This document shows, piece after piece, positions 26,535 to 54,152 of a stretch of 64,000 nt of DNA. This stretch comes from Clytia hemisphaerica (Eukaryota > Cnidaria > Hydrozoa > Leptothecata > Clytiidae). The stretch is taken from positions 849,457 to 913,456 of the forward strand of contig CACVBU010000956.1 in NCBI GenBank assembly GCA_902728285.1, written 5' to 3'. Positions within the stretch are counted from its first letter, which is position 1, and each line of letters begins with the position of its first letter. Below the pieces are notes generated by a model. That model did not search any database and was not told the DNA's origin. It saw only the letters and a list, made by a program, of their open reading frames with translations. A program made the position numbers and the translations under genes.

Positions 26535-26546
26535 TATGGCGTACGA
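26535..26546 (+). repeat. Transposon 1 left terminal inverted repeat
   Basis: TATGGCGTACGA. Weaker similarity to the other end continues for about 60 bases, including CCAGGTTT. Confidence 0.85.
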
Positions 26547-26746
26547 AAACAACAATAATAATAGAAACGTAGATTAAGATGCATAATCCAGGTTTAAGCA
26601 TCATAAAAACCGAAAGCCGGAGCCCGCATTTTCGGAACGTGGTCAGCGTCATTCTAGGCTTTTTACTCAATTTTTCTTGTTTGATGAAGTTTTTTTCACA
26701 TTTAATTTCGTAAATGTATTCGTTAAGCTTTCTTGCTTTCATTTTC

Positions 26747-27671
26747 AAGGTTGCATCCGGTAAATATACAAAAACAAGAAGTTACAGGACTTTTTAGAAA
26801 TGGGATTATTAATCGTTTTTCAAAATCAGGGACCTTCGAGCCGCCATGACAGTTGTCCTTTGCGGACAAACCTAGAACATCAATTGTTTTCTAAAACAAT
26901 GGAAATATAATACTTCGCTCTCCACCGTTTTATTTGATGTTTATCCAGAGTTCTATGATAAATCCATGGTGACATGCACTTAAAACGAAATATCCAAAAT
27001 TTTTCAAAGTGAGCAATTCATCTCAATCTTGAAGCCAGGGGGGCAATTCAATTCAAAAACGACCGTATATGAGGTCAAAAATTAGGTCTTTGAAATCGGA
27101 CCCTTACAGTGTAGAGAAAATTTAGCCGAATTTGAGTAAATTTGGGCGAAACTTTATTTAAGTTGGAACGAAGTTGTAAACGGAATATTAAAGATTGATT
27201 TAATTGATTTAACCTCTTCCTTGTAGAATATGCTTTAGTCTAAGACAAATCACTATCTAAGAAATAAACCCAAAGCTGAAGAGTCTCTTCATTTTTTCCA
27301 GAATAAAATTCTGGGTCAAATCTCCTTTATTAAAAAAAGTCCAGGAACAGATGTTTTTCCAGTATCTCGACACTCTATATCATGGTATAAGAACAGATAA
27401 ATATTTCCAGGGAAAGTTACCCTTCCGGAACAGATATTCTGTAATTTCTAGCTTTTGGTTTCTCTTGTTTATTGTTTATTCATTCGAAAAGGAGAAACAG
27501 CCGAAAAGTTAGTCAGGAAGTTTAGAAAAGCATCTATTAGGGCCAAGAGAACTCAAGAACGGAGTCAAATAGAGAACCACTTCAAAGTAGATATATCTCA
27601 ACTTGAATAGCCAGTGAGAGGAAATCGTTAGTTAAAAAAAAAACAGCAGACAAAAACAGTGAATTTAATAC
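26747..27671. other. Subterminal non-coding region of transposon 1
   Basis: AT-rich; no supported feature. Confidence 0.4.
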
Positions 27672-27936
27672 ACTCTCAGACAGGTGCCTAAAAAACAACC
27701 CCCTCGTTAGTTTATTTTTCTATTTTTCCAGCCAAACCCTTCCCCCGTTTATTAATTTTTGAAGATATTTTATTTTGCTCTAAATCACCCGATTTTTGCC
27801 CAAATTTACCCTATTTCGGGTTTTTCAGAAGTAGAATTTCCAACCCCCTCGGCGATTTGCCTCCGTTATCAAATTTTGAAAAGTTTTCAAAACCCCTCTG
27901 TTTATTCAAACTGTTATTAGGCACCTGAGAATACAG
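27672..27936. mobile_element. G/C-run palindromic MITE, copy 2
   Basis: Ends ACTCTCAGACAGGTGCCTAA and TTAGGCACCTGAGAATAC are imperfect inverted repeats; the interior has CCCCC(T/G)CGTTTATT-like blocks. Same family as 21253-21556, with shorter C runs. Confidence 0.65.
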
Positions 27937-27944
27937 TCTTGTTT

Positions 27945-28320
27945 GATCAAGCATATAGATCGTCTTCTGAAAGTACTGGTTAATGCATTAAACAAAAACG
28001 TCTTGTACAAACAGTGGATCATTTACTGATTATACATTCAAAATTAAAAGGGAATGAAATAGAATAGCATTCATTTGAAGCATCAAGCATATAGATCGTC
28101 TTCTGAAAGTACTGGTTAAAGCATTTAGCAAAAACGTCTTGTACAAACAGTGGATCATTTACTGATTATACAATCAAAATTAAAAGGGAATGAAATAGAA
28201 TTCGTTTGAAACATCAAGCATATAGATCGTTTTCTGAAAGTACTGGTTAAAGCATCAAGCAAAAAAACAAATAGTGGATCATTTACTTTTTTTGCTTCGA
28301 AATATAAGATTAAAAGGGAT
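27945..28320. repeat. Three ~130-base tandem copies
   Basis: Units starting AAGCATATAGATCGTCTTCT recur at about 27949, 28086 and 28217. Each contains GTACTGGTTAA and AACAGTGGATCATTTACTGA. The third is truncated and diverged. Confidence 0.88.
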
Positions 28321-29098
28321 TAAAACTTTAAAGTAAAAGTAACAGGAAAGAAAAGAAAGACCCTGCAGCTCTCAAAGCTTGCTCAAAATCAACAAAAATA
28401 ACTTGAGCTGATGGTTAAGTATGTTCTTCAAGGTTGTTCTACGGGGCAGACCAACCCTGTTTTTACCGAAATTGAAACAAATAAAAAAGCTGAGAAAACG
28501 GATTTTCCAAAATAATTAGTAATCTGAAAATAAGTTCAAAATAACATGTATATTTTTTATACGACGGGTACAAAATGCATAAAACATAATGCATATTGCA
28601 TAATGCATAATGCATAATATTTGAAAAATTTGAATTTTAGAGGCTATAATAAGGATAATTGGAGAGATAATACTTTCAACAAAACAAATATACCATTTTC
28701 TACCAGAAAATAAAAGGTAGAAAGCTGTAAATTTGAATTTTGGATGATGAAGAAAATCCACGATCCACTGAAAATGCTTGTTGCCATTTTGATTTTCATA
28801 GGGGCATAGTTGTATTTTACAGAGCGTAGTATAGTGTAGAAAAAACACAAAAATATCTCCTCCGTATATTACTTTTCTTACTCGAAAACGTAAATTTTAT
28901 TGCAAGATCTTTATTCTGGGTTTTATCAGAGATCTTTTCGAACAATTCCTAATATAATCAACTGGTTTTCCCTATCTTACAAATCATTAGGGTCATTAAC
29001 CATGTGAATGCTTTTTGTTAGATAAGTCAATATAAATTAAAGAGCTTCATGCAAAAGCTAGATCAAAGAAAATAAACTTAGAATCTTTTTACATTCGA
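28321..29098. other. AT-rich spacer with TGCATAA microsatellite
   Basis: A run of AATGCATAATGCATA repeats at about 28567-28618; otherwise no supported feature. Confidence 0.5.
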
Positions 29099-29368
29099 AT
29101 GTTTATGTGTTTACCTTTGTTTGAGAAAGAAAAAGGGGGAAACCTTTCTGATCAATCTGATCTTTTGCATCTTCTTATTATTTATGCTGACGGAAAACCC
29201 TTTGTTATTGATTCGAATTTTCTTATTCGTTCGGATTCGAAAAGTAAATATCATGTCTGGGGAAATCCTTCTGATTGGAATGTTTACTTAAGAAACTCTT
29301 CTAAAGAGGTTTTCGAGGTTTTAGCCTCTACAAAGGAGAGTTTTAGAAAATATAAAATCGTTCTATAA
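29099..29368 (+). CDS. Small ORF of unknown function in transposon 1
   Basis: An 89-codon frame with a protein-like composition: SDLLHLLIIYADGKPFVIDS, then IRSDSKSKYHVWGNPSDWNV. It lies downstream of the kinase-like gene and on the opposite strand. I recognise no family. It could be a small cargo gene, an exon remnant or chance. Confidence 0.3.
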   Translation: MFMCLPLFEKEKGGNLSDQSDLLHLLIIYADGKPFVIDSNFLIRSDSKSKYHVWGNPSDWNVYLRNSSKEVFEVLASTKESFRKYKIVL

Positions 29369-29424
29369 ATTACACAATACTATTATGTTTTATGCATTAT
29401 GTACCCGTCGATTTTTTATATGTT

Positions 29425-32400
29425 TTAAAAAAAGTCTTGGACATGGATCCAAAGATTAAATTGTTCTCTCATAGCCATACAAATGCTAATAGTCTCAGCA
29501 ATGTCTCTCGACAAACAAGAGTCTTTTGAAACGTAGCGATTGAATGTCCTTAAAAGCAAACCAAAACTAAATTTATCTGACACTGTAGAAGGTGGTTGTA
29601 AGCCTTTTCGCACCACCTCCGGTAAATGGTTCCATTCATTCATGTTCTTCTGTTTGAAAGTCAATTCTTTGACTGATACGATTCGACAAGCCCAGGAAAA
29701 ATTTGTTATTATTGGAATCGCGTTATAGTTTACATGGACAGTTGACGTGTTTATGAGGTTGTGAATGACACCTTCTTGATGTATGTGGGTCAAACCATCT
29801 GCGAGTCCAACAATAAAACTACGAACGAAGTTTGAAGTTAGGGACGACTTTTTTTTCAAAAACGACGACAAGGGTACATTTGAGCTGAACCGAAACACAG
29901 AATGAAAAAATGCATCATCCGTGCATGTTATCCCCAAAGGGCTTATAATATTTTTATGTTTGTCAATTGTTCGCAGCAATTTCAGTTCATGGCTCAAAAT
30001 AACGAGCGACTGTTCTTTGGAAACCTTTTTTTTCAAGTTCTTTAAATTGATCATCTCCCCATCTTTTATTGACAATTTAAAGTATTCAAACTCACCATCG
30101 CTATAAACAAACAACTTATCTTTCAAATTTTCAACTTCAACGAAGTCAATATCAGTATCAAGCAAGACTTCATCACAATAGCCTATATGGTCTGAGAACA
30201 ATGCCGAATCACTAATACGGATGGTTCGTTGTTTCAGAGATTTTTCCAGCTTTAATCTACCTAACTCAAAGCTTCGAGTTGTAAGGTAGTGGTTTTTGAC
30301 AAGTAGTTTCGCATTATCTATTCTGAGTTCTTCCTTTTCCTTATCCACTTTAACAGCATGACGAGAATCATAAGCGACCCCTTTTTGCCTTAATGAACCC
30401 CATCTTGCTGCAACTGAATTATCCTGTTTGTCAAGGTTTTCCTGAAAACAAAACAAAAAAATAAATAAAGTTACATAAAAGTACACAAAAATTCACCGTA
30501 TACACACAACGTAAGAGTATTACAAACCAATTTATTAGTCTACAGTCCTTAAAAAGTGGAAAATGGTAAACAAAAAGCCCCCATAAATTATTTCATATGG
30601 GATGTATTTAATGTGTGTTCATAAACTTGAAAGCCATTCACAAAGCCGTTAAATTTGATGTTTTGGTGTTTCTCTTTTTATGTTCTTTATTCTTTTTATT
30701 CTCTTTATATGTTCACATAAATTATATAATATAATTTATGAGGATTTTTTAGGGGGTCAGTACAAAAATCCAAGACATAAATGAGTACTAAAAGGTAATA
30801 CCCCAACCTGTTTTGAAATTGTATCTCTAATTTATGTCATACAAGATAATTAATCTTATTTAAATTAAAAATCCAGTAAAGAAGTTAATTCTTTGCTAAA
30901 AAACACAAACCTTTCTATTATTTTTGAAGGAATACTTTTCAATGATTTCCAAGGATTTGATTTCAACAACTTCAGCTTCGCTTTTTTCTTTCAGCAATTC
31001 AACTATCTGTTTCTATAAATTGATAGATAAAAATCATATTTATAATTTTTAAAGTCCGTTTCAAAATATTTGGCGGTCCGCACATTTTCTTAGTACACAA
31101 ATTTTGTTTTTATCTAAATACCACCTGCTTTTCACTTAGTACACTTGGTGAATAACTGCATTATCCAAATTTGACAAGTGGACCACTGCAGTACTAAATG
31201 TCATTAGTGGGGCCCCCCCAGCGGTTTGCGTGAATGCGTGAATGGGCTTTTTTGGTTGCGTGAATGCGTGAAGATTGAAAAAAAATTGCGTGAATGCGTG
31301 AATTAAAAAAACTTGCGTGAACGTGAAAATCCATTTTCTATTGCGTGAATGCGTGAATCTGCCCTGTTTTTTACGTGAACTCGGGGAATTTCCCTTTTCA
31401 CCCAGTTTGCAGAACGTGGCACGTTTGTTCGAGATTTTGAGTGCAGCACCCGCCAAAAGTCGAGTGCAAGTACATATTTTTTCTTTTATAAGCATAACGT
31501 TTATAAGCATATGCAGGCTCAGTTTTTGGTCACTAAACAATGGCTCTATTATTTGAGAACAATAGAATGCTAAGCATAATGTGAGCCTGATGTAGGGGCA
31601 GACACTTGCTTATAAAAAAAAAACATGTATAGTTTAGTCAGCCCTCACCACAAATCTTTAATTCAAAGAAATATTTAATACCCACGATGCAGACTTTTGA
31701 GAACCTCATTTCTTGGCAAAATCAGTCTGAAATGGAGTCGTATTTAAGCACATCAGAGTGTGAAAATAGAAACTTTCCCCTGTCGGCGCAAACCATGGTT
31801 GCGCCTCCCTTAGTCGCTATGTTTTCGGCCCCTCCACGTTAGGAAATCAAGACGCGACCCCTGATGAACAAATGTTCATCCTTTTACCTCATTTTGCACT
31901 CTATCAAGCGATCGTACCTCGCCTCTTAATGAATTTAGACTACATTCTTTTTCAATGGTGTTAAAGATAGCATTTTTAGCCAACCGCGAGGTGACAGAAA
32001 TGCAAAAAATTTCCTCTCTGCGCAAACCATGGTTGCGCCTCCTTACCCCTTAGCTAAGCATTATGGTGTCACCCTGGAGTTTGTTTGACCTATTTTTGAT
32101 AATGATTAAGATATTTTTTGTACAAAAATCACCTTTTCTAAACGACAGTGACATGTTAGAAGAATAAAATATTTTGCGTGATGGCATGTGATTAAAGTTA
32201 AAAACTTACGTAGCACTTTATTAAGCTAATGTGCTTATAGTCAGGTGTACAGGAAAAAATCACTACTGAGTTAAGTTTTTCTCAAGTGCATGACCAGATC
32301 CGGTCGAAAAATCTCGAGTGTAGCAGCCTTGCCATTTTGGTTCCGCTGGGGCGCCTCGTATACGAGGGCATTCTACCATTTATATTAGATTGCAATGTCT

Positions 32401-32845
32401 AACGTCTGCCCCACTCTCGAATACTTAACAAAAACAAACGACTTCTCTGATAATTCAGACTCTGCAAACTGGCTTTTCACCCAAATGTGTAGAAATGTTT
32501 GACAATTTCCCCGATTTTTCCGAAAATTTCCCCGATTTCCCAAAAAATCGGGTTTGTGTGAATTTCGAGAAAAACTTGCGTGAATGCGTGAATTGCGAAA
32601 AAACTTTGCGTGAATGCGTGAATTTAGGGTCCGCTGGGGGGGCCCCATTAGTGTCATGTGCTAACTGCCTGTCCCCCTGAACACAACAAACTCCAACCAA
32701 AAATAATTCCATTAAGGTAAAAATGGTGAAATAGAAGACTTACTGGTAACGTTTTCTTCAAGCGATTAATTGTTTTTTTTTTGTATCTGCCTGGCAGGGC
32801 ATCCAATACTACTTTTGACTTTTCGAATATTTCATCAATAATCAT
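29425..32845 (-). CDS. Protein-kinase-like cargo gene (probable pseudokinase)
   Basis: Exons 32845-32744, 31012-30911 and 30441-29425 are all phase 0 and give 406 residues. The N-terminal third is helical (IFEKSKVVLDALPGRYKKK, QIVELLKEKSEAEVVEIKS). From about residue 220 it follows a protein kinase: HELKLLRTIDKHKNIISPLG (helix C to beta 4), FIVGLADGLTHIHQEGVIHN (helix E and catalytic loop), IPIITNFSWACRI (DFG region) and LQPPSTVSDKFSFGLLLRTF (helix F). The catalytic loop reads HNLINTS rather than HRDLKxxN, and DFG is NFS, so both catalytic aspartates are missing: probably a pseudokinase. Intron 1 holds a 1.4-kb hAT-like insertion. Frame and splice sites are intact, suggesting a kept function, perhaps host interaction. 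Confidence 0.78.
31210..32645. mobile_element. Non-autonomous hAT-like element, 1.4 kb
   Basis: Ends GGGCCCCCCCAGCGG and CCGCTGGGGGGGCCC are inverted repeats, flanked by 8-base duplications CATTAGTG (31202-31209 and 32646-32653). GCGTGAATGCGTGAAT doublets recur near both ends. CAAACCATGGTTGCGCC, a near-palindrome, occurs twice inside (about 31788 and 32022) and a close variant lies in the MITE at 43288. No transposase frame. Antisense frames across it are ignored. Confidence 0.82.
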
Positions 32846-33349
32846 TCTTATAATTTTACTTTACACTGAAATGAAAAAAAAAACATTGCTGGAAAACAGG
32901 AACCTAAAAATACCATTTGCTTGCGGTACATATCAAGTGGATTTTTGTTATTTTGATACATACACTCAGATATTGTCTCAAAATTGCTGACATATACATA
33001 AATAATTTTAACTTCCAGCGTCTTTGGCCATCATCGACGCGTCCAAACAAGCAATGCTATGGGTGACTTTAAACCTTTTAAAAGCACCCAGGTCTAAATT
33101 TAGCTTCCGATTAATTATTGTCAGTATTTCCATTTAAATTGAGAAAAATACGATTGAATAATTTTATGAGCTTTCAGAAGATGTATAAATTCAAATTCAA
33201 AAAAAAAAAACACAAAACATCTAGATAAACCTATGAGCTTTAAAAAAATGTTATGTTCTACATGAAAATTTCTAGTAATGGTACAATTTAGACCCATATT
33301 ACATAATTTAAAATTCTTGTCCTGAAATTCAACAAATGTAATTGATGGT

Positions 33350-36255
33350 TCATTTAGCAAGTCTCTCAAAAACAAATTGCATTACTTCGCCATAAATATC
33401 TAAACCATCATTTGGACTTTCCCTCAAAACATCAATAGAGTCATCCAACTCTTGTATATCCTGGTCAGTGAGAGGTAGCTCAAAACGTGGCAACACCACT
33501 TTAATGGAATCAGGTTCAGTTAAGGATTTAGTGCTTCTATATTTTTGAATGATGTTATTGTAATCTTCAGGATCTCTTCTAAATATATTGTTCATGGCTG
33601 TTAAAGATCTATTTGAATTAATAAGTGAGGCATTAAACCACATTTGTTTGGGAGTTTGGCTTCCTTCTGACCGGACTGCGTGAATATTATGAGCTTCTTT
33701 CCAGAATGTGAGGGATTTTTGTATACGTCGCCCATAAACATGATGCAAACATGCCAAGTGAATTTCATTATTGATATCTAAGATATGCCATCCTTCCATT
33801 AAGGTGAACAAATTGTAAAACTTTTCCAACACTTTTATAAAAACATCTCTCCAGAGACGCTCTATACGAATATTATGGACTGATTTTCCTGTTATAAAAC
33901 TACCGCGATCTACTCCATTGATTTCTTCCATCAATTTGTTGATATGGACGAATTCACTTCCTTTGTCAGCTCTAACACGACTAGGAATTTCGTATTGATT
34001 TATACCACTTAAAAAGTCAGACAGCATAGATGCAGCAAGATTATTAGTGTGAAGTTGAAGAACAACTATGAGTCTACTATAGCCATCAATACATCCATTG
34101 ACCACAAAGTTCCACCTGCAATCAAATAAAGAAATTGGTACAGGAGGCACCCGGGGAGGCAATTAGCCTACATAATCTTCTAAAAAATAGCGTTAATCTA
34201 GGTAAGTAGACGGATGAGATAAACTAAAAAATATTATCAACAATTCTTGATAGAAATCAATGAACACCATTAAATGAGCAGGAAAATTACTTTAAATTAT
34301 TGGTCAGTTATTTTCTTAAAATCAGAAAATCTATCGCTCGGTGATTTCTTATTTCTGGTCGGTTTTAACCGATAACCGACCACTATTTCGATCACTGTAA
34401 TCCCCACTGAAATCCAAAAAATCCAAAGTTCCACCTAAAGATTTGGGACCGAAATCAATAAATCCTAGTTAGGGGGAGTGCACACTATGTTTAAGTTATT
34501 ACCTGATGAGTTTGTGATGGGTGTCAATATGCCAAAGAGAATTTGGGCTTGCAACTCTGTAAAATAATAATTTGAAAAAAAAATTAACTTGCATATTAAA
34601 GTGGTAAAAATTTAGAGGAGTCCTTTTTTTAAGCGGTGGCAAAATGGATGACATTATCAGGTGCTAAAAACGTTTAAAATTCTCTAAATCATTACAAAGT
34701 GTGTCAGATGTTATTACAAAGTGGGTCATCTTTTGGTATTACAAAGCGCGTTAATTTTTATTACAAAGTGCATAAATTTTTATTACAAAGTGCATTAGTT
34801 TGTTTATTACAAAGTGCGTCAGTTTTTATTACAAAGTGAGTCAGGTATTACAAAGTGCGTCAAGGTGTATTACAAAGTGCATCAGGTATTACAAAGTGTG
34901 GCGTTATTACAAAGTGTGTTAGTACAGAAGTCGTTATTATAATGCAATTGTTGTCTTTTTGTGTCTGAAAAATCTGAGCCTGACTTTAAAATATTTCGGA
35001 ATACTGGAATTGTTTCGGTATCAGAAATCCATGAATTTTTGCTTTGGGATTTCGTTAGTATATAGTTTTTATCCCCCTATTTTCGGAATTCGTCCATAAA
35101 AAATGGAAATTGAAAAAATATTAGTCAAAACAAGGAAAGATTTCCCCAAAAATTGGTATCGGAATTTCAAATATTTTTAGCAAAATTGTTTGGTATTTCG
35201 GAATGCAAACCCTGTACGCCCCCTTTTGATGATGATTTCAATGATTGGCCAAAAAATACCTCTCATGGGTATATAGTGAAGATATGTAATATATACCGTG
35301 AAGTTGGGTAACTTGCATCAGTGGAGGCTAACATGCATAGCCCTCAAATGGATGACCTGGCTGGTCCTTAAAATACAAAGTTAAATCAAAACAAAAATGG
35401 TAGAGCTGCGAGCGAGCGGAGCTCCGTAGTTCATTTGTTTTGAAATTTTGCTGCTTTGATTGGGCAGTCATTTGAGGGCTATGCATGTTAGCCTCCACTG
35501 ATGCAAGTTACCCGACTCCACGGTATCTGTCATTATTGTAGTAAAAAAAAATTAATTCAAAAACTAAATCTGTATATAAAAAGATGAAACCTATAAACAC
35601 GTCTTGGGATGATTTTGGCCCATCTTCTTGTTGTACCAACAGGGTCTACCTCAGCAAGTAACTTTGCAACTCGGTCCCTTTGAACTTTAATAGGTGGATC
35701 TAAATTCATTAGCATGGCCTTGACCTCCCTTATTCCAGAGTTTGGATACTTCAAGTTAATTGATTTGATTTGAAGGGTAAGGTCATCGTCTGCGATAATA
35801 GTGTATCGTTTCCTTACTCCAATCATATTATTCCTTCTTATGAAGTTGTGTATTGTATTTGGATGGACCTTTGCCCCTAGCAAACCATCAGTGGCTATCT
35901 TGACCACAGAGGTACCTAGTGAGAGTAGCTGCTCTAAAAGGTCTTTATTGATAATATAAGCATCATTTCCTCTTTTTCCATTTCTTTTCTTGGCCAATTT
36001 AACATCTAACAGTTGATTTTCGCAGTCATCAATTACTAGACTGCTAATCGAGTCAATCTGACTTTTAACTCGTGCATATTGCTCATCAGTGATTACATCT
36101 TTTAATCTATCAAGATTTCGAAGGGATAGATTTACACGTTTATAAAAGCTTTCATCTCGTGAATTTACATCTGACCTACTAAGTCCTTCAACAAGGTTTT
36201 TGATATCATCATACAATTCATCTGTACCTTTGGTTCGACTTCGAACATCAGCCAT
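33350..36255 (-). CDS. Integrase (rve-type transposase) of transposon 1
   Basis: Exons 36255-35591, 34556-34503 and 34115-33350 join to an uninterrupted 494-residue frame. The first ~190 residues are helical with a helix-turn-helix-like stretch (KVHPNTIHNFIRRNNMIGVR). The core follows: PNSLWHIDTHHKLIRWNF with GCIDGYSRLIV (first Asp), PSRVRADKGSEFVHI (second Asp), and SVHNIRIERLWRDVF (catalytic Glu). This matches integrase-core proteins seen in fish and invertebrate genomes. The first donor, TATAG|GTTTCA, is weak but the frame fits exactly across it. It should cut and join the TATGG ends. Intron 1 holds a TTACAAAG array and a MITE. No lesion was seen, so the copy may be young. Confidence 0.88.
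34690..34921. repeat. Intronic TTACAAAGTG array
   Basis: Eleven copies of ATTACAAAGTG(C/T)(G/A)T(C/T) at irregular 16-28-base spacing, in the integrase intron. Spacing and spacer sequence are irregular, unlike CRISPR. Confidence 0.88.
35294..35525. mobile_element. TA-flanked palindromic MITE
   Basis: Ends CCGTGAAGTTGGGTAACTTG and CAAGTTACCCGACTCCACGG are inverted repeats with arms of about 60 bases (both include CATCAGTGGAGGCTAACATG or its complement), flanked by TA. This fits a Tc1/mariner-type MITE. A half copy lies at 53411-53503. Confidence 0.82.
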
Positions 36256-36428
36256 TTTGTGATCATCTTCATGCTTCTTTCATCGCGCATCATCACATGT
36301 CTATTTTAAACATGGTTTAAGCTAGACTAATTCGGGAAATTTCATGTTTTGATGTACTAGATGAACAAAATATACACTGAAACCTGGTTTAAGCAGCAAA
36401 ACCAAGTTTATGCTTTTTGATGTTCATC

Positions 36429-36440: not shown

Positions 36441-36446
36441 GGTAAC

Positions 36447-44081: not shown

Positions 44082-45374
44082 ATGTCTGGAAAAAAGCGAG
44101 GACAAGATCAATACAAAGCTTTTCTTGAAGGTTTGAAAGACAAAAAGAGCAGCAAAGGAGGGAAATTTGAATCCTTCGAAAATTTGACCGTCCAGAGAAT
44201 GTCCACTGGAGTATCAGGCAAATTACAAACCTACGACCGGATTGGACCCCTCACCTATGTTAATTTCAATGGTATGCAGCTTACACTTGACAATATTAAG
44301 AAGGCATGTAAAAATCACTTTCATCTTGAGATGAAACAGAACCAAGAGATCGATATTTTGGCTGGAGAACGTGGCCCTTCCTGGACCCAAATCTCAGAAA
44401 TCAAGAAGTTTGTTCCTCTTCACATTAGATTCGTTCCTGGGAAAGCAAATAATGAAACATCTACATTTAAGTCTTCATTGCCACCAGCCCGCAAAAGATC
44501 AGCAAATGCATCTGGTATTTCTAGTAATAATTCAACTCAAATACAAAAATCACACTTTCCAACAAGCAAGCTTCCAGTGGCAAACATCAATGGGCCACTT
44601 GTATCATTACCCCCATCAAAATACATGAAAATGGGACAACTGATTGAGCCACAAAATTCAAAATTGAAAGTGTTTACATTGGAGGAATTCAATGTCAACA
44701 CACAGAGATGGTTACCCCCCTTTGAGGTGAAAATGACAATGGAGGAACAACCATTTGGACATGGTGGCTTCCGAGATGTGTTTAAAGCATTCAGCTGCAA
44801 TAAACTCTATGGTGATTATGTTGTAAAAACATTTCAAAAAGAAAAAATTGATGTTCTTAAAGAAAGGTTATTCACAGAGGAAGAGCATGCCAGAAAAACA
44901 GTTCAAATGCATGCCCTAGCACAATACCTTTCAGTTAAATTCAAACAAGTGATTCCTAAGGATTTTGGTGAATCCTTTGTGTACACAACTTTGTATTTTG
45001 GTAAATTCAACGATGGTAATGGTGATCAATACGTTACTGTAGAAAGGTTTTTGGAGGGAGAATTTGAGAAATTTGTCAATAATGATGGTAATATTAACCA
45101 TGCACCAGAGTTAGATAAAACTTTGTTAAAAAAGGCTGAAACATTTGCTCACTATACATACCTAGAATCAAGAAAATCTTTAATGGTCGTAGATCTGCAA
45201 GGGGTGAAATACACTTTGAGCGACCCTGAAATTGCCAGTCAAAACTCGCATGACAGTACAGACAAGATGTACTTTTGTACAGGAAATTGGGGTCATGAAG
45301 CTATCCAGAAATTTTTAAAAGTGCACAAGTGCAATAGTTGGTGCAAGCAAATTGGTAAGAGATTTGGAGAATGA
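44082..45374 (+). CDS. Alpha-kinase, transposon cargo
   Basis: A single 430-residue frame. The start is the ATG at 44082 (MSGKKRGQDQYKAF); upstream codons begin with a non-ATG and are doubtful. Residues 1-200 are basic and low in recognisable motifs. The C-terminal half is an alpha-kinase (eEF2K/TRPM7/VwkA family): FGHGGFRDVFKAF (nucleotide loop), YVVKTFQKE (lysine), VERFLEGEFEKFVNNDG, HYTYLESRKSLMVVDLQGV, TLSDPEIAS, and GNWGHEAIQKFLKVHKCNSW with the following C forming the zinc site. All conserved residues I look for are present, so it is probably an active Ser/Thr kinase. It is the leftmost gene of the transposon, reading towards the integrase gene. The intronless form may indicate capture via RNA. 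Confidence 0.9.
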   Translation: MSGKKRGQDQYKAFLEGLKDKKSSKGGKFESFENLTVQRMSTGVSGKLQTYDRIGPLTYVNFNGMQLTLDNIKKACKNHFHLEMKQNQEIDILAGERGPSWTQISEIKKFVPLHIRFVPGKANNETSTFKSSLPPARKRSANASGISSNNSTQIQKSHFPTSKLPVANINGPLVSLPPSKYMKMGQLIEPQNSKLKVFTLEEFNVNTQRWLPPFEVKMTMEEQPFGHGGFRDVFKAFSCNKLYGDYVVKTFQKEKIDVLKERLFTEEEHARKTVQMHALAQYLSVKFKQVIPKDFGESFVYTTLYFGKFNDGNGDQYVTVERFLEGEFEKFVNNDGNINHAPELDKTLLKKAETFAHYTYLESRKSLMVVDLQGVKYTLSDPEIASQNSHDSTDKMYFCTGNWGHEAIQKFLKVHKCNSWCKQIGKRFGE

Positions 45375-46193
45375 CTTTCAAAACGTACATATCATACATA
45401 CAATCATATTTAAATTGAAACTTCTTCCATTTTCTTTTTGAGTAATTTTTGAAACTCGAACTGTTTATTGTTCTCCTGTTCCTATTTTGTTATTATTTTT
45501 TGAGTTATTTCATGAAGTGTAATTCATTTTTTTGCCCTCAGACATCACAAACATATATACAAATATTTCTGTGAGGCTTTTGTTTATTCTTCTGAAAGAG
45601 GGTGAAAAGATTGCACAGTTTATGTGGATGTAACATTTTCTAGGAATTCACCCATTGACTTGACTTTGGTGTGAATTTATTTATTGAAAAGTGATTTTGA
45701 TTTTAGACTTTAAAAAGAAGTCAAAATTTTGACTAAATATTTTGTATATAGGAAAAACGAAACCTACCTATTAAGTCTTTGTATGTATTATTGTAGTATT
45801 TTTGACTAGTTAGCTTTTTATTATTACATTGAAAAAACGAAAACCCACCTTTTTAAGATCCTTACTCCAATTATCAATTGTCAGTCAGTCTCTGACAAAT
45901 AACCCTAACTTGCCTCCACTCCCCTTAGATGGGCTGAAAATTTTCTCGAAATACAGAGCACTTTCTATTTCAATTTCTTGAACATGTCTGAAGAAAAAAA
46001 ATTACAAAAAAAAAGGTTTTTATATAAGCATCAGCTTTTTTCGAGCTAAGCTTCGATTATGCTTATAGTGTTAATATTGTTAATAATTGTTATCTCAGCC
46101 TGGATATGCTTATAAAAAAAAGGTGTAGGAGCTAAGTTTTGACATTCAACTCAACATTCAAAGTTCTATGGTTTTCACAAAAAACAAAAGTAC
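45375..46193. other. 3' region of the alpha-kinase gene
   Basis: AT-rich. No coding feature. Confidence 0.45.
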
Positions 46194-46796
46194 AGTACTC
46201 TTAGGTTCCAAATAAACGGGGGGGGCTTGGAAATTGTACTTCTGAAACCCAAAAATAAGGTAAAAATAGGCTAAAATCAGGCTATTTAGAGCAAAATAAG
46301 GGGCCTTCTCTTTGACAGCTTAAAAAAAATTAACAAGCGGAGGGGGGGGGGCATAGTGTGCAGAGGGGTCTGGACCCCCCATTAATATTTCATCCCCCCC
46401 TATAAAGGTATCCCCCTATTTTTAAAATTTTTTGATCCCGCACGCCATTTACAGGGGTCCGAGCCCCCAGCATATAATTTGTACTCCCAGTATTGGGGAA
46501 GAATTTTGATGAATAAAATATATTTTTCAGTGTGAATTCGTACCAATAGTCAATGAACTTGAAAACACTAGCAAATAAACAGTAAACTAATAATAGTAAA
46601 ACTAGGAAAAATAAGAAATAAGACTTTCATCAACTATCCCCCCCCCCCAATTTTTATTTGATCCCCCTCCCTATAAGCTCAAACCCCCCATTTTAACTGG
46701 AAAATTGCCCATCCCCCCTATAAAGCCTTCCTTGAAAACTCGGACCCCCCTTTATTCATACTATGGGGGGTGTTTATTTGGCACCTAAGAGTACTT
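46194..46796. mobile_element. G/C-run palindromic MITE, copy 3 (longest)
   Basis: Ends AGTACTCTTAGGTTCC and GGCACCTAAGAGTACT are inverted repeats. GGGGGGG/CCCCCCC runs of 6-10 bases recur about every 40-80 bases. The middle (about 46350-46740) has a second set of CCCCCCTATAAAG blocks, perhaps another element nested here. Confidence 0.78.
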
Positions 46797-46810
46797 AGAT
46801 TTTGGACAAT

Positions 46811-47072
46811 GGGCTCTTCCAGAAAAATCCGTTCATAGGGGGTGGAGGATGAATTGTCCAGGGGTATTGAAAAAATACCAAAAAATTGCAATGTCCAGGG
46901 GGTAAATTCCAATGTCCAGGGGTAATTTTTTGTGTCCACGGGGTTGATTTGATGTTTGTCCAGGGGTATAACCCGTGTCCAGGGGGTTAAAAATCAAAAT
47001 GTCCAGGGGTAATTCATGAAAAAAATAATATATCCTCCACCCCCCATGAACGGATTTTTTCTGGAAGAGCCC
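46811..47072. mobile_element. Palindromic MITE with TCCAGGGG units
   Basis: Ends GGGCTCTTCCAGAAAAATCC and GGATTTTTTCTGGAAGAGCC are inverted repeats, continuing GTTCATAGGGGGTGGAGGA. The interior has about seven units of TGTCCAGGGG(G)T. A split relative flanks transposon 1. Confidence 0.82.
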
Positions 47073-47438
47073 AGTGTTGAATACTTAAAATTATTTCAAA
47101 ATCTCTCTAGTTTTAGAAAACTTTCTTTCAAATTATCAAAAAGTGTCAAAGATTACAGTAATCGTAAATATGATATAATACATGCACATGTTAAGGACCA
47201 ATGACTTTTCTATTAATCCCCGTAGTGATCTCTTATGTAGAGAAAGGGTGCAATTATGTTAACAGAGTCTTCTTCGGGATTGATAATTTTCAGCTGCTCA
47301 CAACGAATTCGCGTTTCCGGTTTGATGTAATCATCAAGATCATCATTGTTAAAAACTCCCGATAGCTGTGCCACTTCAGTCAATTCCTCTTGTGTAGTTT
47401 CAAAACCTGAGATTTGAGAAAAGGTTTACTCTCTTGAT

Positions 47439-47721
47439 TACTCTCGGGTACCTAATAGCCGGGGGGGTTGGAATAAGCGGGGGGGTTGGAAAAAATCTCA
47501 AAACTTAATAAGCGGGGGGGGGGGTTGGAATAAAAATGTCCTGGGTGGAAAATTTTTGAAAAGGAGGCTATTACAGCTGAATTAGGACAAAAAAGGGAAC
47601 TTTCAAAAATATTTTCCCAAAAATTAATAAGCGGGGGGGTTGGAATAAGTATGTCCTGGGTGGAAAATTTTCGAAAAATTAATTAGCGGGGGGGGACGGC
47701 TATTAAGTACCCGAGAGTAGT
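47439..47721. mobile_element. G/C-run palindromic MITE, copy 4
   Basis: Ends TACTCTCGGGTACCTAATAG and CTATTAAGTACCCGAGAGTA are inverted repeats; the interior has four TTAATAAGCGGGGGGG(G)TTGG units, some with AATATGTCCTGGGTGG. It sits in an intron of the broken integrase gene. Confidence 0.85.
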
Positions 47722-48113
47722 CAATAATTTATATAATGCAACGAAAATTTAAACAAATTAAAAATTTTCATCTGTTGAAAGATGTAAATCCGAACTCAAT
47801 GTAATGTATTGATAAAAATAAAATTATATGGCAAAATTAACATACCACACTGTTAATTTGAGATTTAATGATGGTATTGAAACAATGAAGGTGACACATC
47901 TTAATGACTTAGTTAAAACTTTTCCTGATCATAGAAAACTCTTTGTTTGAATAAGTTTTTTATTACATACGACCAATCCACTTTTTGACAACATCTCTGT
48001 TTAATTGTGTACAATTTTTCGTCTAAATGCTTGCTTTTTTTTTTCTCCCTTTTTTTATTACATTTTGGCTCGAGGAACATTTGCAAACTTATTTTGCACA
48101 CAAAAACTCTACA

Positions 48114-51100
48114 ATGGCAAACGATGACTGCTCTGTTTGCTCGAAAAAAATAACTTCTAAAACTTTTCATTCTTGCCCCAAGTGTAAAAGACGATCCCAT
48201 GCACGGTGTTTAGGCATTGAACCAAAATACGTAAAAAACATTTGGCTCTGTAAACTTTGTACGCATGATGCTCTACCTAATTTCGAATCCAATGAAAAAT
48301 TACCCATTGGTAAAGATATAAGTCACTTAAAATCATATTTTAGACATCTAAATTCTATTTCAAACTCTTTTTCTAACTTCGATTCTCAAATCGATGAACA
48401 ACGTGGCGATATTACTTTTGATGATCATGTTAATCATTTTGACTGCAAATATCATAGTACTCAAGAATTTGCTTCTCTACCTCTCAAAAAACAAACTTTT
48501 TCTTGCCTTCATCTCAATATCTGCTCTTTAGAAAAACATCATGATAACCTTACTACTTTACTTTCTAATCTCAATCATAATTTCAGTATACTCGGTATCA
48601 CTGAAACAAGACTCAAATCTTCTATCGAAAACACTGAACTTTCTATTAGCGGCTTCAAATCTTTTGATACCCCTGCAGTCTCAACAGTTGGGGGAACTGC
48701 TCTTTTTGTCTCGAACTCTCTCAACAAAAAACCTCGTAAAGATCTTTCAAAGATAGTACACTCGGACTGTGGTAATCTCGAATCAACCTTTGTTGAAATC
48801 GTCTTAAAAAATAGGAAAAACTTCATTGTTGGATGTATCTACAAACATCCCCTTTTAGACATCGACCTTTTCAATGATAAATTCTTAAAACCTTTGCTGA
48901 GAAAATCCTGTCAAGAAAATAAAAATCTTATTTTGTTAGGCGATTTCAACATAGACCTTTTGACTTGTGACTCTGTGATTTCTCACTCCAAATTTCTTGA
49001 CATTCTTGGTGCCTACCAGATTCTACCAACTATTACCTTGCCAACGCGGATCACTGATACCTCTAGTACTCTTATTGATAACATCTTTACCTCTCCCTTT
49101 CCCTGCTCTTCTTTCTCTGGAAATCTTACAGTTGCTATATCTGACCATCTTCCACAATTTCTAATTTTGAATACTGACTGTGACTCTAAGTACAAACCTG
49201 AACTTCCTTTTCGTCGAGATTGGTCTAGATTTGACGAGGCTAGTTTCAAAGAAGAATTTGATAGCGTCAATTGGAATGGTCTTCTTGAAATTGAAAAGGG
49301 AAATGTTGACTCATCTTTTGATTCTTTTTTGACTCGTTTTTCTTCTTTGTATGATAAGCATGTTCCTTTGAAACAGTTGACCAGACGTCAAGCTAACCTT
49401 CTACTCAAACCTTGGATCACCAAAGGTATTCTCGTCTCTATGAACATCAGAGATAGCCTTAAAACCGACTATTTGAAAGTTCCTGATTCTTCATCCGATC
49501 TTAAGAATTTTCTTCGTGACAGATATAAATTTTATCGAAATCGCATTGTTTCTCTTATCCGTGCGAGTAAAAAACTCCATTATTCTCGTTACTTTTTTCA
49601 AAACTCAGGCAATCTTCGAAAATTATGGCAAGGCGTCAGAGAGATTATAGCTTCTCCTTCTTCTTCAAGCTCTATTTCTCTTAACATCGATGATTCCCTA
49701 TCTTCGAATCCTGAAGAAGTTTCTGAAGCTTTTAACGATTTCTTTTCAACCATTGCAGGTAAAATACGATCAAAAATTCCCTTCACACGTCATCATTTTT
49801 CAGAATGGCTGAAGAATGACAATCGAAATACCGACTACTTTCTCATTGCTCCTGCTTCTAATCTTGAACTCTCTAAAGCTCTTATTTCTCTCAGTGAAAA
49901 CAAGGCTACAGGTCCGAATAGCATCCCTTATCGAATCATTTCTTCCAATTTGGACACCCTTTCTTCGATCTTTACTCGTATTGTAAATCTCTCTTTCTTT
50001 ACTGGTGTCTTTCCAAGTCAGCTGAAGGAAGCGAAAGTTATTCCTGTTTTCAAAAACAAAGGTTCTCCATTCGATGCTGAGAACTACAGGCCAATTTCTC
50101 TTCTTTCTAATATTGACAAAATCTTCCAAAAACTTATGCATAAACGACTGATGAACTTTCTCGACCAATCAAATTCAATCTACCCATTACAATTCGGATT
50201 CCGATCAAATCATTCAACTGAAACAGCCCTCCTTTACTCCATCAACCAAATTTCAAGTGCTCTAGATGAAGGTAAGTATGGATGCTCAATTTTTATCGAT
50301 TTACAAAAGGCATTTGATACCGTTGACCACTCTATTTTACTGTCAAAGCTAGATTTTTATGGGGTTCGTGGGAAAGCTCTTGAATGGTTTCGATCATTTC
50401 TTTTTGAAAGATCACAGTTTGTTTCAGTCTCTGGTAAAAACTCTTCTTCTAAACACATGCAACATGGTGTCCCCCAAGGTTCTGTTTTAGGCCCTCTACT
50501 CTTTCTCCTTTATGTTAATGATCTTCATATTGCTCTTCGCTATTTTCTTGTCAGTTTGTTTGCTGATGATACTATGCTCTTTTTTGCGAATGAATCTTTG
50601 AAACCGATCGCCAAACAAGCTAATATTGATCTGAAGCTTCTTATGAATTGGCTCAAAGCTAATAAAATTTCTATAAACGCTAGTAAAACAGAGCTCTTAT
50701 TATTTCGTCCAATACGTAAGAAGATCGATTACGACTTGAAAATTAAAATCAACGGGCATCGGCTCAGACCAAGCAAAGTTGTAAAATACCTTGGTGTGTA
50801 TATTGATGAACATCTGAACTGGAAACACCACATCGATTTTGTCTGCAATAAACTAAAGAGAGCTAATGGAGCTCTGAGTAAACTTCGGCATTATGTCGAC
50901 AAGAAAATATTAACTTCATTGTATTTTTCTCTTTTTCAATGTCACATATCTTATGCAGCGCAAATCTGGGGGCAACGCCAAACCATCCACGCCCGCCGAA
51001 TTCTTATTCTTCAAAAACAAGCTCTCAGAATCATGTCTTTTTCTGACTTCCGTGCTCATTCTTTTCCTCTCTTTTTGCAGTTTAAACTTCTTTCATTTTT

Positions 51101-51416
51101 TGATTTTGTTAAATACCTTAACATTCTCTTTATTTTTAAACTTTTGAATCGAAAATTACCTCTTCCTCTCATACAAACTCTTGAGTACAAACGTTTAAAT
51201 GATACAGACCGTCATGAAGTAATCCGTTGTAAGTCTGGACTTTTAAAAATACCTGAAGTAAAAACAGTGACTTATGGTAACTATTCAATTTTATACCAAT
51301 CCATCTTGGTTTGGAATGAAATTCAAGATTTTGTTACTTTCGATGATTCGTCTACACTAGCATTGGATCGTCTTAAAGATTTAAGTAAATTATATTTTCT
51401 TTCCTCGTACACTTGA
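48114..51416 (+). CDS. Retrotransposon ORF2: PHD-like finger, endonuclease, reverse transcriptase
   Basis: The open frame begins at 48027, but I prefer the ATG at 48114 (MANDDCSVC) because the earlier 29 codons are hydrophobic and low-complexity; length 1100 residues. A PHD-type finger comes first (CSVCSKKITSKTFHSCPKCK, then C...H...WLCKLC). The endonuclease follows: HLNICSLEKHHDNL, GITETRLKS, LLGDFNIDLL, SDHLPQFLIL. The reverse transcriptase: NYRPISLLSNIDKIFQKLM, IDLQKAFDTVDHSILLSKL, GVPQGSVLGPLLFLLY, SLFADDTMLFF. All catalytic residues are present. No ORF1 was found upstream, so the copy is either 5'-incomplete or of a one-ORF type. It differs from copies A and B. Confidence 0.92.
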   Translation: MANDDCSVCSKKITSKTFHSCPKCKRRSHARCLGIEPKYVKNIWLCKLCTHDALPNFESNEKLPIGKDISHLKSYFRHLNSISNSFSNFDSQIDEQRGDITFDDHVNHFDCKYHSTQEFASLPLKKQTFSCLHLNICSLEKHHDNLTTLLSNLNHNFSILGITETRLKSSIENTELSISGFKSFDTPAVSTVGGTALFVSNSLNKKPRKDLSKIVHSDCGNLESTFVEIVLKNRKNFIVGCIYKHPLLDIDLFNDKFLKPLLRKSCQENKNLILLGDFNIDLLTCDSVISHSKFLDILGAYQILPTITLPTRITDTSSTLIDNIFTSPFPCSSFSGNLTVAISDHLPQFLILNTDCDSKYKPELPFRRDWSRFDEASFKEEFDSVNWNGLLEIEKGNVDSSFDSFLTRFSSLYDKHVPLKQLTRRQANLLLKPWITKGILVSMNIRDSLKTDYLKVPDSSSDLKNFLRDRYKFYRNRIVSLIRASKKLHYSRYFFQNSGNLRKLWQGVREIIASPSSSSSISLNIDDSLSSNPEEVSEAFNDFFSTIAGKIRSKIPFTRHHFSEWLKNDNRNTDYFLIAPASNLELSKALISLSENKATGPNSIPYRIISSNLDTLSSIFTRIVNLSFFTGVFPSQLKEAKVIPVFKNKGSPFDAENYRPISLLSNIDKIFQKLMHKRLMNFLDQSNSIYPLQFGFRSNHSTETALLYSINQISSALDEGKYGCSIFIDLQKAFDTVDHSILLSKLDFYGVRGKALEWFRSFLFERSQFVSVSGKNSSSKHMQHGVPQGSVLGPLLFLLYVNDLHIALRYFLVSLFADDTMLFFANESLKPIAKQANIDLKLLMNWLKANKISINASKTELLLFRPIRKKIDYDLKIKINGHRLRPSKVVKYLGVYIDEHLNWKHHIDFVCNKLKRANGALSKLRHYVDKKILTSLYFSLFQCHISYAAQIWGQRQTIHARRILILQKQALRIMSFSDFRAHSFPLFLQFKLLSFFDFVKYLNILFIFKLLNRKLPLPLIQTLEYKRLNDTDRHEVIRCKSGLLKIPEVKTVTYGNYSILYQSILVWNEIQDFVTFDDSSTLALDRLKDLSKLYFLSSYT

Positions 51417-51719
51417 TTTGTTTTTGTTTTTTTTAATTTTTTATATTTTTTTTTTCCCCCTCTCTTTTTCGAGTTTGATTTTAAATTTCAATAGTTTCTT
51501 CTTTTTTTATTTTAGTTTTTCTTTTATTTATTTTTCTAAATTTTTTCCAATTTTTCGAAAATTATTTTATAAAAAATTTTATTTCACTTTGTTACTAGTA
51601 AGACCTTAGTAACTTTATTTTTCTTAGCTTTTCTTGTAATTATATCGTGCGGCCACCTCCTTAGTTTAGCATTATGTCTATGAGTGTGGTCGCTAGTCTC
51701 GCTTTTTAGGACAAATAAA

Positions 51720-51751
<32 letters not shown>
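51720..51751 (+). repeat. (TTAC)n tail of retrotransposon copy C
   Basis: Eight TTAC units directly after AATAAAT. On the minus strand this reads GTAAGTAAG, a consensus splice donor, right after the integrase exon. Confidence 0.92.
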
Positions 51752-51752
<1 letters not shown>

Positions 51753-53197
51753 GAAGACCCCAATTCTCTGGAAAACTGTAAATATGAGAGGGTTTTCCGG
51801 TAGGCAAATACGTTTCTTTTTGTTTACGAATCCGATGATTATTCCACAACTCAACAAATACATCCACTTGATGTTGAATTATTGGTACCATAACATACGC
51901 AAGAATTTCCCTGAAAAAAGAAAACATGTTCCTTAGAGAAAGAAATTCTGATTTTACGTTTTGAATGTCATTTTAAATTTTAGTTTTGAATGTTATGGAC
52001 ATAATTTCAACAAAAACTACATATATAAATTCTTCATATAGTGAATAAAATGATAAAATATATCAAAATGAGGCGACTGCCAGTTTTCTTTCTTTTTTGA
52101 AATACTGTAATACCTTACTTACCTGTGTAATTCGTTTTTTGGATCGTACATAAGGTTGTCTTTCATGGTTCTTAATTGGTCTTTATAATATTCTTCTAGT
52201 TTCTCATGCAACTCCTTCCACCAGCGTTCAATCTGATAAAAAAAGGATCTGAGATTATAGACGGATTTTTTTGATGCTTTAGGGGAGGGGGTAGATGGTT
52301 AGATATTTGAAATGTTGATTGAAATGGAGTTTTAAATTTTTACAATTTTTCTTGATTTTCACTTTTATCCTAGTCCAAAAAAGAATTGGTTGGAAGACCT
52401 GTACAAAGTTTGACAGAATATAGAATCACCAAAATGAATTTAATATTTACCTGGTTTGAGGTTGATGGTCCAAATATGATGTTTTTTGTTGGATCGTCCA
52501 CTTTATCCTTCAGTAAATAACAATGTACACCAGCCATCTGGACAGTTTCTGTTCCTTTATCTATTCGAAGGTTTTGAGCAACGACTTTGCTTTTGTATAG
52601 GTATTCAATGTAAAACCTTCCGATCAGATCTGGATTACTGTTGCTACTCCATACTTTCAACCACAAAATTTTTCGGCTACATGTATCGATAGATCCATAA
52701 ATTGCTATCGGGAAAGTACTGTTTTGGTATCCCATCAACTTATCGTGTCCATCAAGTGAGTGGACAAAATTAGGACCAGGGGAAGAAAAGTGTCCTTTCT
52801 CTTTCTTTTTTGCTCCTGGTCTTCTTGCTTCTAGAAGCTCTGGATTTTCATTAAACATGGCACCATGTACCACAGCTCTTGGAACGTTTAATTTGTATTC
52901 TTGTCTGATTTTCTGATGCATAGCTCTATAGCCTAGAAGGGCTCCAGGTCCACCCATCTCATTGCTAACTATCCCCTGAATAACATCAACAGGGACATTG
53001 TAGTCAGTATATTGGATTCTGAAGTGGTTCAGTCGACGTGATAGTGATGATGGACTCCAAGCATATTGAGGGAAATCTCTTTTGACAAAATCCAGAATTT
53101 CACATTTCTTGAAAGTCTTAGAGACATAGTCGGTTAACACTTCTTTTAGGTTTTCATCATCCTTCCAACTATCATTTCTGATTCTTGCGATACTCAT

Positions 53198-53859
53198 TTT
53201 TCTTTTTATTCTCTTCCTCAAAATGTGAAAAAGTTGCTTAGAGACAAATACAAAAGCTTGAGGCTTTAAATGTATAACATCAATATTGGCAAGATATGCA
53301 CACAAAAAGCTGTTGAAAATAAGAATTATCTCCCTCTACAAGATAACACCAACCTATAGTATTCTCATAAAAAGTGTGCAGGTACTTAAGCTTGCTTAGA
53401 AATTTGGTTACAGTATCGTGAGATTGGTTAATTTGCATCAGTGGAGGCTAACATGCATAGCCCTCAATTAAAAGACCTGGCTGGTCATTAAAATACAAGA
53501 GCAGCCGCAGATTTCTTTGAAATATCTGTTCTCTTTTTCCAGGAGAGTAAATTTTATGGATAAATCTAGGAGATTTCAGATTTATAAGATTAATGATCAT
53601 TACAGTAAAGTTGCTGCTATTTAGTTAGACCAAAGATGTATAAAAGCGTACAAGAAAGTGCTCGAATTAATTAAACTAACTGATAAACACAATTATGAGG
53701 TAAAATTAACTAGTTTGATAAAGCAAAACCACAACCACAAACAGACAAAACAACAAACATTGAAATCCATTATCTGTTTCATGTTGTTTAGAAACATACT
53801 TTCGATTTCGATCGGTAAACTTTTACGGCTGACGAACAATGTTTATACACTATCACGGT
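53198..53859. other. 5' region of integrase gene 2
   Basis: Apart from the MITE fragment, nothing coding is supported. Confidence 0.4.
53411..53503. mobile_element. Half copy of the TA-flanked MITE
   Basis: Contains TTTGCATCAGTGGAGGCTAA then CATGCATAGCCCTCAA and GACCTGGCTGGTC, matching the left half of 35294-35525. The right arm is missing. Confidence 0.75.
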
Positions 53860-54152
53860 TGCCGAATTCTCGGTCACTCAAGGATACGGCACCGTATGAC
53901 ACCGAAAGGCTATGAGATCGATGGGCCACGCGGGTGTTATGAGTTTTTTTTTGTTTTTTTTGTTATTGTTCACACTTTTATTTTTATTTTTATTTTTTTA
54001 TGTGTTTTAGATTTTTTTTATTCACTTTACATCTTTTTTTTCTTTTTTTTTTTTTCTTAATTTTTTGAAAGATTTTGTGAGAAATCATCGATTTTTTTTC
54101 CTTTTTTGTGATTTTTCCTTAATAATTGTTATGACATTTATAGGCCACCATA
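53860..54152 (-). repeat. Transposon 2 right terminal repeat
   Basis: Reverse complement counterpart of the left terminal repeat; the inner end has ACGGCACCGTATGACACCG and the outer end GGCCACCATA. Confidence 0.75.

Follow-up and report, generated by a model that had tools for sequence, protein, structure and literature searches.

Two DNA transposons, here called E1 and E2, lie within a 64,000-nucleotide stretch of the genome of the hydrozoan Clytia hemisphaerica (assembly GCA_902728285.1, contig CACVBU010000956.1, positions 849,457 to 913,456; hereafter the window). Besides an integrase gene, each of them carries a gene for a protein of the kinase fold: an alpha-kinase in E2 and, judged by its sequence, a pseudokinase in E1. 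The best explanation, which we consider probable, is that kinase-fold cargo accompanies the integrase in two lineages of the IS3EU/GingerRoot superfamily, is under selection and was recruited separately, no target being named. The element-level part of this explanation is held with high confidence; the target and role proposed below for the kinases are speculative and may well be wrong. The window is part of contig C662 in a 417-Mb assembly of 951 contigs.

Two transposons of IS3EU/GingerRoot type

E1 has the layout GGTAAC, TATGGCGTACGA ... TCGTACGCCATA, GGTAAC, with an inverted repeat that is perfect over 12 bp and continues imperfectly to about 64 bp. The layout of E2 is GATTAG, TATGGTGGCC ... 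GGCCACCATA, GATTAG, with an inverted repeat of 60 bp (72%). The 12-mer end of E1 and the 10-mer end of E2 each occur exactly twice in the window, once per element end. The host site of E1 is a repeat resembling a miniature inverted-repeat transposable element, of which an uninserted relative is present in the window (Table 1). When the flanks of E2 were joined at the duplication, one frame was open across the junction, inside the open reading frame of a long interspersed nuclear element (LINE). As perfect 6-bp target site duplications (TSDs) are combined with such evidence from flanks or an empty site, both elements look like real insertions.

IS3EU elements have been described as carrying TA..TA termini, 6-bp target duplications and a DDE integrase related to IS3/IS481 (PMC10045372, available portion). 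E1 and E2 resemble them in their ends, in duplication length and in the DDE core of the integrase, and they fit this superfamily of cut-and-paste DNA transposons. Both end in TATGG..CCATA, in line with the TA..TA termini (TAYGG..CCRTA in fungal members), and 6-bp duplications were found in E1, E2 and four further E2-type elements. A DDE core is present in both integrases. That of E1, encoded by three exons with 494 intact amino acids in all, has the catalytic spacing D-56-D-34-E and matched Pfam rva_4 (PF24764) at 4e-68. The E2 integrase, modelled as four exons on the strand opposite the alpha-kinase, has the spacing D-63-D-37-E; its rva_4 match (1.2e-5, 25.6 bits) falls just under the cut-off of 26, which its relatives at loci L012 and L026 pass. 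Relatives of the E1 integrase match rva_4 too. The Pfam scan of the integrase pieces gave no match to a zinc domain, no dedicated search for an HHCC motif having been made. The two integrases belong to deeply separated lineages within one genome. The word kinase does not occur in PMC10045372, whereas here the two integrase lineages bear different kinase-fold cargo.

The initial annotation of the window had proposed two integrase-type transposons with matching ends and 6-base duplications, carrying a 430-aa alpha-kinase in one exon and a 406-aa kinase-like gene in three phase-0 exons. Our gene models, whose exon borders were set by inspection, agree with this. It had overlooked that the 406-aa protein lacks the catalytic aspartates and that the E2 integrase is split by a LINE. 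This LINE of 3.9 kb lies in integrase exon 3, a few bases before the splice site of a LINE-less copy. The latter is a twin of E2 on contig C248 (L010). It shares the right-hand GATTAG with E2, lacks the LINE, differs on the left side and gives kinase matches in two frames; it appears to represent either the second haplotype or a duplication of E2. The nested LINE is a young insertion, polymorphic between the two. C248 as a whole resembles a rearranged alternative haplotype of C662, with about 117 kb between alpha-kinase and pseudokinase as compared with 14 kb in the window.

The alpha-kinase as cargo of E2-type elements

The 20 best-scoring of 113 Pfam alpha-kinase matches in the genome, excluding the window's own, were sampled as stretches of about 10 kb. 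Sixteen of these stretches contain an E2-type integrase at least in part; in L017, L020 and L022 only a piece is present. For L013, L019 and L027 a listed integrase lies outside the fetched stretch yet within 10 kb, and L011 alone is without one. Four loci hold both genes between TATGGTGGCC ends, namely L012 (7871 bp), L015 (4754 bp), L023 (5292 bp) and L026 (4918 bp), and their perfect TSDs are all different (CATAAC, CTAGAC, CTTATC and GTAGAG). This exact 10-mer was present at 13 of the 20 alpha-kinase loci versus none of seven pseudokinase loci, about 0.006 occurrences per 10 kb being expected from composition. Homology between L015 and L023 runs from end to end within 1–2 bp and not beyond; that between L026 and L028 stops exactly at the right end, and that between L015 and L021 within 2 bp of it. 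In several copies integrase, kinase and ends have moved as a whole unit.

For the genome-wide counts, the E2 clade was defined as integrase loci of at least 41% identity to the E2 integrase (67 merged loci), the 41% line being drawn after viewing the list; neighbouring matches were merged over 1.5 kb for kinases and 4 kb for E2-type integrases, which was our choice. An alpha-kinase lies within 10 kb of 49 of the 67 listed E2-clade loci (46 within 7.5 kb, 51 within 15 kb) and of 41 of the 48 that are at least 600 bp long. Among the more distant listed rva_4 loci (below 41% identity, many with intact frames of more than 400 aa) none of 71 has an alpha-kinase nearby (Fisher p 1.4e-22 for 49/67 vs 0/71). 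The alpha-kinase is real cargo of E2-clade elements and not a chance neighbour, and it often accompanies the integrase in divergent families of this lineage.

An alternative, which we regard as highly improbable, is that such elements prefer to insert beside kinase genes, or that a separate repeat, nested in them, supplies the kinase. Both kinase families are indeed large and dispersed, with many copies away from listed integrases. Against this stand the end-to-end homology of L015 and L023, which includes both genes at different duplications, and a second copy of E1 that bears kinase and integrase together (see below). Separate ends around the kinase genes were not noticed, in the course of inspection and without a systematic search.

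Several observations weigh against the conclusion that the alpha-kinase is a regular part of these elements. The E2-integrase search behind the listed loci scored 150 of 309 candidates. No alpha-kinase was found within 10 kb of 18 of the 67 listed E2-clade loci. Seen from the kinase side, a listed E2-clade integrase lies within 10 kb of 49 of 100 alpha-kinase loci, a count that rises to 51 at 15 kb and leaves 49 without one; some of these unaccompanied loci are short fragments, others have large frames of 680–730 aa. Kinase and integrase distances were uncorrelated beyond family (r 0.09 among seven representatives; 2067 of 5000 permutations as high), giving no signal of long-term co-descent of the two genes. 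A value of r 0.94 over all 14 loci was set aside as a co-descent signal, as it reflects near-identical copies.

The large alpha-kinase frames of 680–730 aa on contigs C941, C831 and C398, each in two pieces and with no listed E2-type integrase within 15 kb, are possibly host genes.

Properties of the alpha-kinase

The E2 protein gave a clear match to Pfam Alpha_kinase (2.1e-38). Its AlphaFold model, calculated from 44 sequences (predicted local distance difference test, pLDDT, 83.6), was matched by Foldseek to ChaK/TRPM7 (E 8e-18 for ChaK), eEF2K and MHCK-A. Residues K249, D371, Q373, D381, H357, H415, C417 and C421 occupy the catalytic and zinc sites; we take the lysine, aspartates and glutamine to be catalytic and the histidines and cysteines to belong to the zinc site. 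Nine catalytic or zinc-site residues were invariant in 21 of 21 kinases, a result favoured by the fact that these copies were picked by score; one of the 13 columns checked was variable (Asn, Gly in two). Judged from sequence and model, the enzyme looks active. It shares the fold of the catalytic domain and the active-site and zinc-site residues with ChaK/TRPM7, eEF2K and MHCK-A; unlike these it is transposon-borne and has an N-terminal domain of its own, which is particular to the E2 type and conserved in 43 database relatives. Altogether 83 database relatives were found, many of them full length at about 40% identity, including named cnidarian and hemichordate proteins. None was confirmed among viral contigs of IMG/VR (40 pattern matches, alignment-based).

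Four diverged alpha-kinase pairs, hand-picked from 210, gave ratios of non-synonymous to synonymous differences (pN/pS) of 0.31–0.50. The listed deep pairs with finite values gave 0.25–0.40 at synonymous sites near saturation. On the other side of the balance, a frame of at least 380 aa from the first methionine was present in just 11 of the 20 fetched alpha-kinases, and young pairs with at least 15 changes gave ratios of non-synonymous to synonymous rates (dN/dS) of 0.36–0.72, values which fit expectation if single copies decay after insertion. A dN/dS of 0.94 for E2 versus its twin L010 was discarded, the kinase of L010 matching in two frames.

The pseudokinase of E1

The 406-aa product of the second cargo gene, which lies downstream of the E1 integrase on the same strand, matched Pfam Pkinase and PK_Tyr_Ser-Thr above cut-off. 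Alignment with CDK2 revealed HNL in place of HRD and NFS in place of DFG. We aligned eight such sequences (E1, three database relatives and four genome loci) and placed the sites by the CDK2 alignment: the ATP-site lysine and the helix-C glutamate were present in 8/8 each, the HRD and DFG aspartates in 0/8 each. Going by these residues, the E1 cargo is a pseudokinase, with the kinase domain conserved and the catalytic residues lost. A ninth sequence, at L035, is at odds with this in part: it has HLN and also DFS, the DFG-site aspartate being kept. The initial annotation had suggested that a kinase could modify transposase, chromatin or a host defence factor; for the E1 protein as an enzyme this fails, the catalytic aspartates being absent.

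Eukaryotic pseudokinases in general have a kinase domain in which the ATP-site lysine is kept and the catalytic aspartates are lost, and the E1 cargo shows the same pattern. It differs from them in being multicopy and partly transposon-borne, its three relatives bearing no specific name. These were the only relatives among 5.8 billion proteins, where intron-containing genes may be missed. No relative was confirmed among viral contigs of IMG/VR (93 pattern matches, alignment-based). The pseudokinases of L031 and L032, 78% identical, gave a dN/dS of 0.11 [0.08-0.16] at a dS of 1.05; those of L029 and L030 gave 0.18 at a dS of 2.9, which is near saturation. A predicted structure from a four-sequence alignment (pLDDT 39) was not used. 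Upstream of the pseudokinase of L030, at 1517-3001 in kinase orientation, a 495-aa frame may encode a HECT ubiquitin-ligase domain.

A second copy of E1 was found at L033 on contig C605. It is 97–99% identical to E1 over long blocks; the alignment sets in precisely where the end sequence begins, the DNA 5′ of it being different, and leaves the right 108 bp unmatched. L034, also of the E1 family, is a fragment. L031 combines an E1-type integrase (46–59% identity) with a pseudokinase of 32% identity in the gene order of E1, and contig C788 shows the same order as judged by coordinates. No convincing pair of ends was detected within the fetched stretches of L029–L032 and L035.

With the E1 integrase exon 3 as query, 149 integrase matches were joined by hand into 140 loci, the division into E1-clade loci, E1-like fragments and others being drawn after viewing the list. 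A pseudokinase lies within 8 kb of 6 of the 16 listed long E1-clade loci, 2 of the 7 E1-like fragments and 1 of the 117 other listed rva_4 loci, the last being L035 (Fisher 7.6e-6 for 6/16 vs 1/117). In five of these six linked long loci, integrase and pseudokinase share a strand, the integrase lying upstream.

A constant association is contradicted by a number of points. The 149 matches scored were drawn from 323 candidates. L033 and L034, the other copies of the E1 family that were retrieved, both have broken kinase frames. Ten of the 16 listed long E1-clade loci have no pseudokinase within 15 kb, three of them at 65% integrase identity to E1 (C611:86167, C377:136785 and C695:1018388), and 74 of the 83 pseudokinase loci are more than 8 kb away from any listed integrase. 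In the linked locus on C261 the integrase is downstream on the opposite strand; L035 keeps the order of E1 (integrase 27–41%, kinase 27%) with a piece of another integrase in between; and the linked loci on C248 and C662 are probably one. The pseudokinase is a true cargo of the E1 clade, and an inconstant one because 10 of 16 E1-clade loci and 74 of 83 pseudokinase loci are unlinked.

These 74 loci with no listed integrase nearby would be expected if the pseudokinase were an ordinary multicopy family of the host or of another transposon, some members of which were picked up by E1-type elements. We consider this explanation possible and on balance rather unlikely. Order and strand are the same in E1, L033, L031, L035 and C788, and three of the five same-order loci have kinases only about 26–32% identical to that of E1. 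Moreover, so small a number of database relatives is unlike a common host gene, with the proviso on intron-split genes made above.

The proposal of the initial annotation that the kinases are true cargo is borne out by the end-to-end copies, the second E1 copy and the genome-wide linkage counts. It had also raised the idea of kinase cargo as a general trait of the group, and had named as refuting that other copies lacked the kinases or that these occurred at the same place without the elements. As a trait it holds for the listed E2 clade and partially for the listed long E1-clade loci; it does not extend to the other listed rva_4 clades, either for the alpha-kinase (0/71) or for the pseudokinase (1/117). 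Both kinases also occur away from listed integrases (49/100 and 74/83 loci, at 15 and 8 kb); taken together, the proposal survives for the E2 type and only in part for the E1 type.

Selection, origin and possible action of the kinases

Transposons capture genes, and the kinases might be neutral hitch-hikers, fragments of host kinase genes captured by chance and useless to the element. The dN/dS of young alpha-kinase pairs, the missing catalytic residues of the pseudokinases and the broken frames of L033 and L034 would suit this explanation. We nevertheless judge it very unlikely: 49 of 67 listed E2-clade loci are linked in families whose kinase domains differ at 56–67% of sites, the catalytic sites of the alpha-kinases are invariant, and one pseudokinase pair has a dN/dS of 0.11. 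Diverged members of both cargo families bear marks of purifying selection, for which the initial annotation had suggested a dN/dS test.

As the two kinases are unrelated in sequence, two acquisitions are the simplest reading, and kinase cargo was probably recruited twice, separately. The initial annotation was right on the lack of relationship, and its double acquisition stands by inference. Its statement that such elements had not been described with kinase cargo does not hold for the alpha-kinase. In fungi, a transposase gene and an oppositely oriented alpha-kinase gene have been reported for all TET+ IS3EU families (Kojima 2025, PMC12730594, available portion). These families share with E2 the TAYGG..CCRTA ends, the 6-bp TSD and the alpha-kinase opposite the transposase; they differ in their fungal host and in a TET/JBP gene between the two genes, whereas none was seen among the Pfam matches and long frames of E2. 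With these elements in print (PMC12730594), alpha-kinase cargo is known in kind. In the portion of that article available to us the alpha-kinase is only named, and copy numbers, residues and tests of selection are not given. 'Intons', fungal IS3EU-derived elements with five to six conserved proteins, were mentioned in a 2012 meeting report (PMC3520738, available portion); the likeness, by description, is an IS3EU-derived element with extra conserved genes, the proteins being unspecified there. Kinase passages in the available portions of PMC5753468 and PMC3520738 are unrelated. In the literature covered, mostly at the level of titles and abstracts and with subscription journals and Repbase notes outside its scope, no description turned up of a non-fungal IS3EU element with an alpha-kinase or of a pseudokinase carried by a transposon.

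The fungal families raise the alternative that the alpha-kinase is ancestral to IS3EU, shared with fungi, lost elsewhere and replaced by the pseudokinase in the E1 lineage. This is quite possible, if short of probable. Alpha-kinase and transposase are oppositely oriented in the fungal TET+ elements (PMC12730594, as described there) and also in E2, L015, L023 and L026. The likeness to fungi rests on description, however, and orientation varies in Clytia, both genes lying on one strand in L012, L014 and L018. The 42 strong alpha-kinase loci all lie more than 10 kb from the 150 scored rva_4 loci, which is neutral with respect to an old loss. We give slightly less than an even chance to the reading that IS3EU-type elements have at least twice taken up a kinase-fold gene as a second gene kept by selection, the product being an active alpha-kinase in one lineage and a catalytically dead pseudokinase in another.

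A mechanism can be sketched. Going by element anatomy and superfamily, the integrase would cut at the TATGG ends and insert the element with a 6-bp stagger. The alpha-kinase may promote persistence of the element through its enzymatic activity, most likely by phosphorylating a restraining host factor or its own transposase, and the conserved N-terminal domain may pick the target. As the pseudokinase has kept lysine and glutamate and lost the catalytic aspartates, it would most likely work through binding, regulating a host kinase or the integrase or serving as a decoy for one of them.

Further features of the window

The coordinates of both elements are compiled in Table 1. Just left of E1, window positions 25910-26440 hold a repetitive stretch open in several frames. 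A remnant at 20107-20910 matches the TNP-like GTP-binding insertion domain (PF21788), which we take to be the domain of P-element-type transposases. On the minus strand, 56060-58528 contains a pair of long open frames, of 351 and 429 aa, with no Pfam match above cut-off.

Table 1. Coordinates of E1, E2 and associated features in the window
Feature	Position	Strand	Basis or remark
E1, IS3EU/GingerRoot-type DNA transposon, 9906 bp	26535..36440	.	terminal inverted repeat (TIR) and TSD; second copy elsewhere starts exactly at TIR
E1 target duplication GGTAAC, left	26529..26534	.	
E1 target duplication GGTAAC, right	36441..36446	.	
E1 TIR, left	26535..26546	+	
E1 TIR, right	36429..36440	-	
E1 integrase exon 1	35591..36255	-	open frame and splice sites, by inspection
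E1 integrase exon 2, first catalytic D	34503..34556	-	
E1 integrase exon 3, second D and E	33350..34115	-	rva_4 4e-68
E1 pseudokinase exon 1	32744..32845	-	identical piece in second copy L033
E1 pseudokinase exon 2	30911..31012	-	by inspection; second copy
E1 pseudokinase exon 3, kinase domain	29425..30441	-	Pkinase 4.8e-14, PK_Tyr_Ser-Thr 3e-14
Uninserted relative of the repeat hosting E1	47030..47080 (approximate limits)	+	
E2, IS3EU-type DNA transposon, 10483 bp including nested LINE	43670..54152	.	TIR and TSD
E2 target duplication GATTAG, left	43664..43669	.	
E2 target duplication GATTAG, right	54153..54158	.	
E2 TIR, left (TATGGTGGCC)	43670..43679	+	
E2 TIR, right	54143..54152	-	
E2 subterminal inverted repeat, left arm	43894..43938	+	87% complementary to 53886-53930
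E2 subterminal inverted repeat, right arm, 45 bp	53886..53930	-	
E2 alpha-kinase, 430 aa, single exon	44082..45374	+	Alpha_kinase 2.1e-38
E2 integrase exon 1, first and second catalytic D	52451..53197	-	
E2 integrase exon 2, catalytic E	52123..52232	-	
E2 integrase exon 3, interrupted by LINE near its end	51751..51910	-	
E2 integrase last exon	47213..47406	-	
LINE nested in E2	47852..51751	+	absent from twin copy on contig C248

Implications

The usual image of a eukaryotic DNA transposon is that of a transposase gene with little else. The presence of a kinase beside the integrase in 49 of 67 listed loci, its active site being intact in the copies compared, suggests that phosphorylation is part of the coexistence of element and host. 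A selected dead kinase in a sister lineage offers a way to ask whether the activity or the binding surface matters; a transposon-borne pseudokinase whose binding alone controlled the integrase or the signalling of host kinases would, if true, be a new kind of transposon accessory protein. Finally, proteins annotated as 'TRPM6-like' or 'myosin heavy chain kinase-like' in corals and their relatives may be transposon genes.

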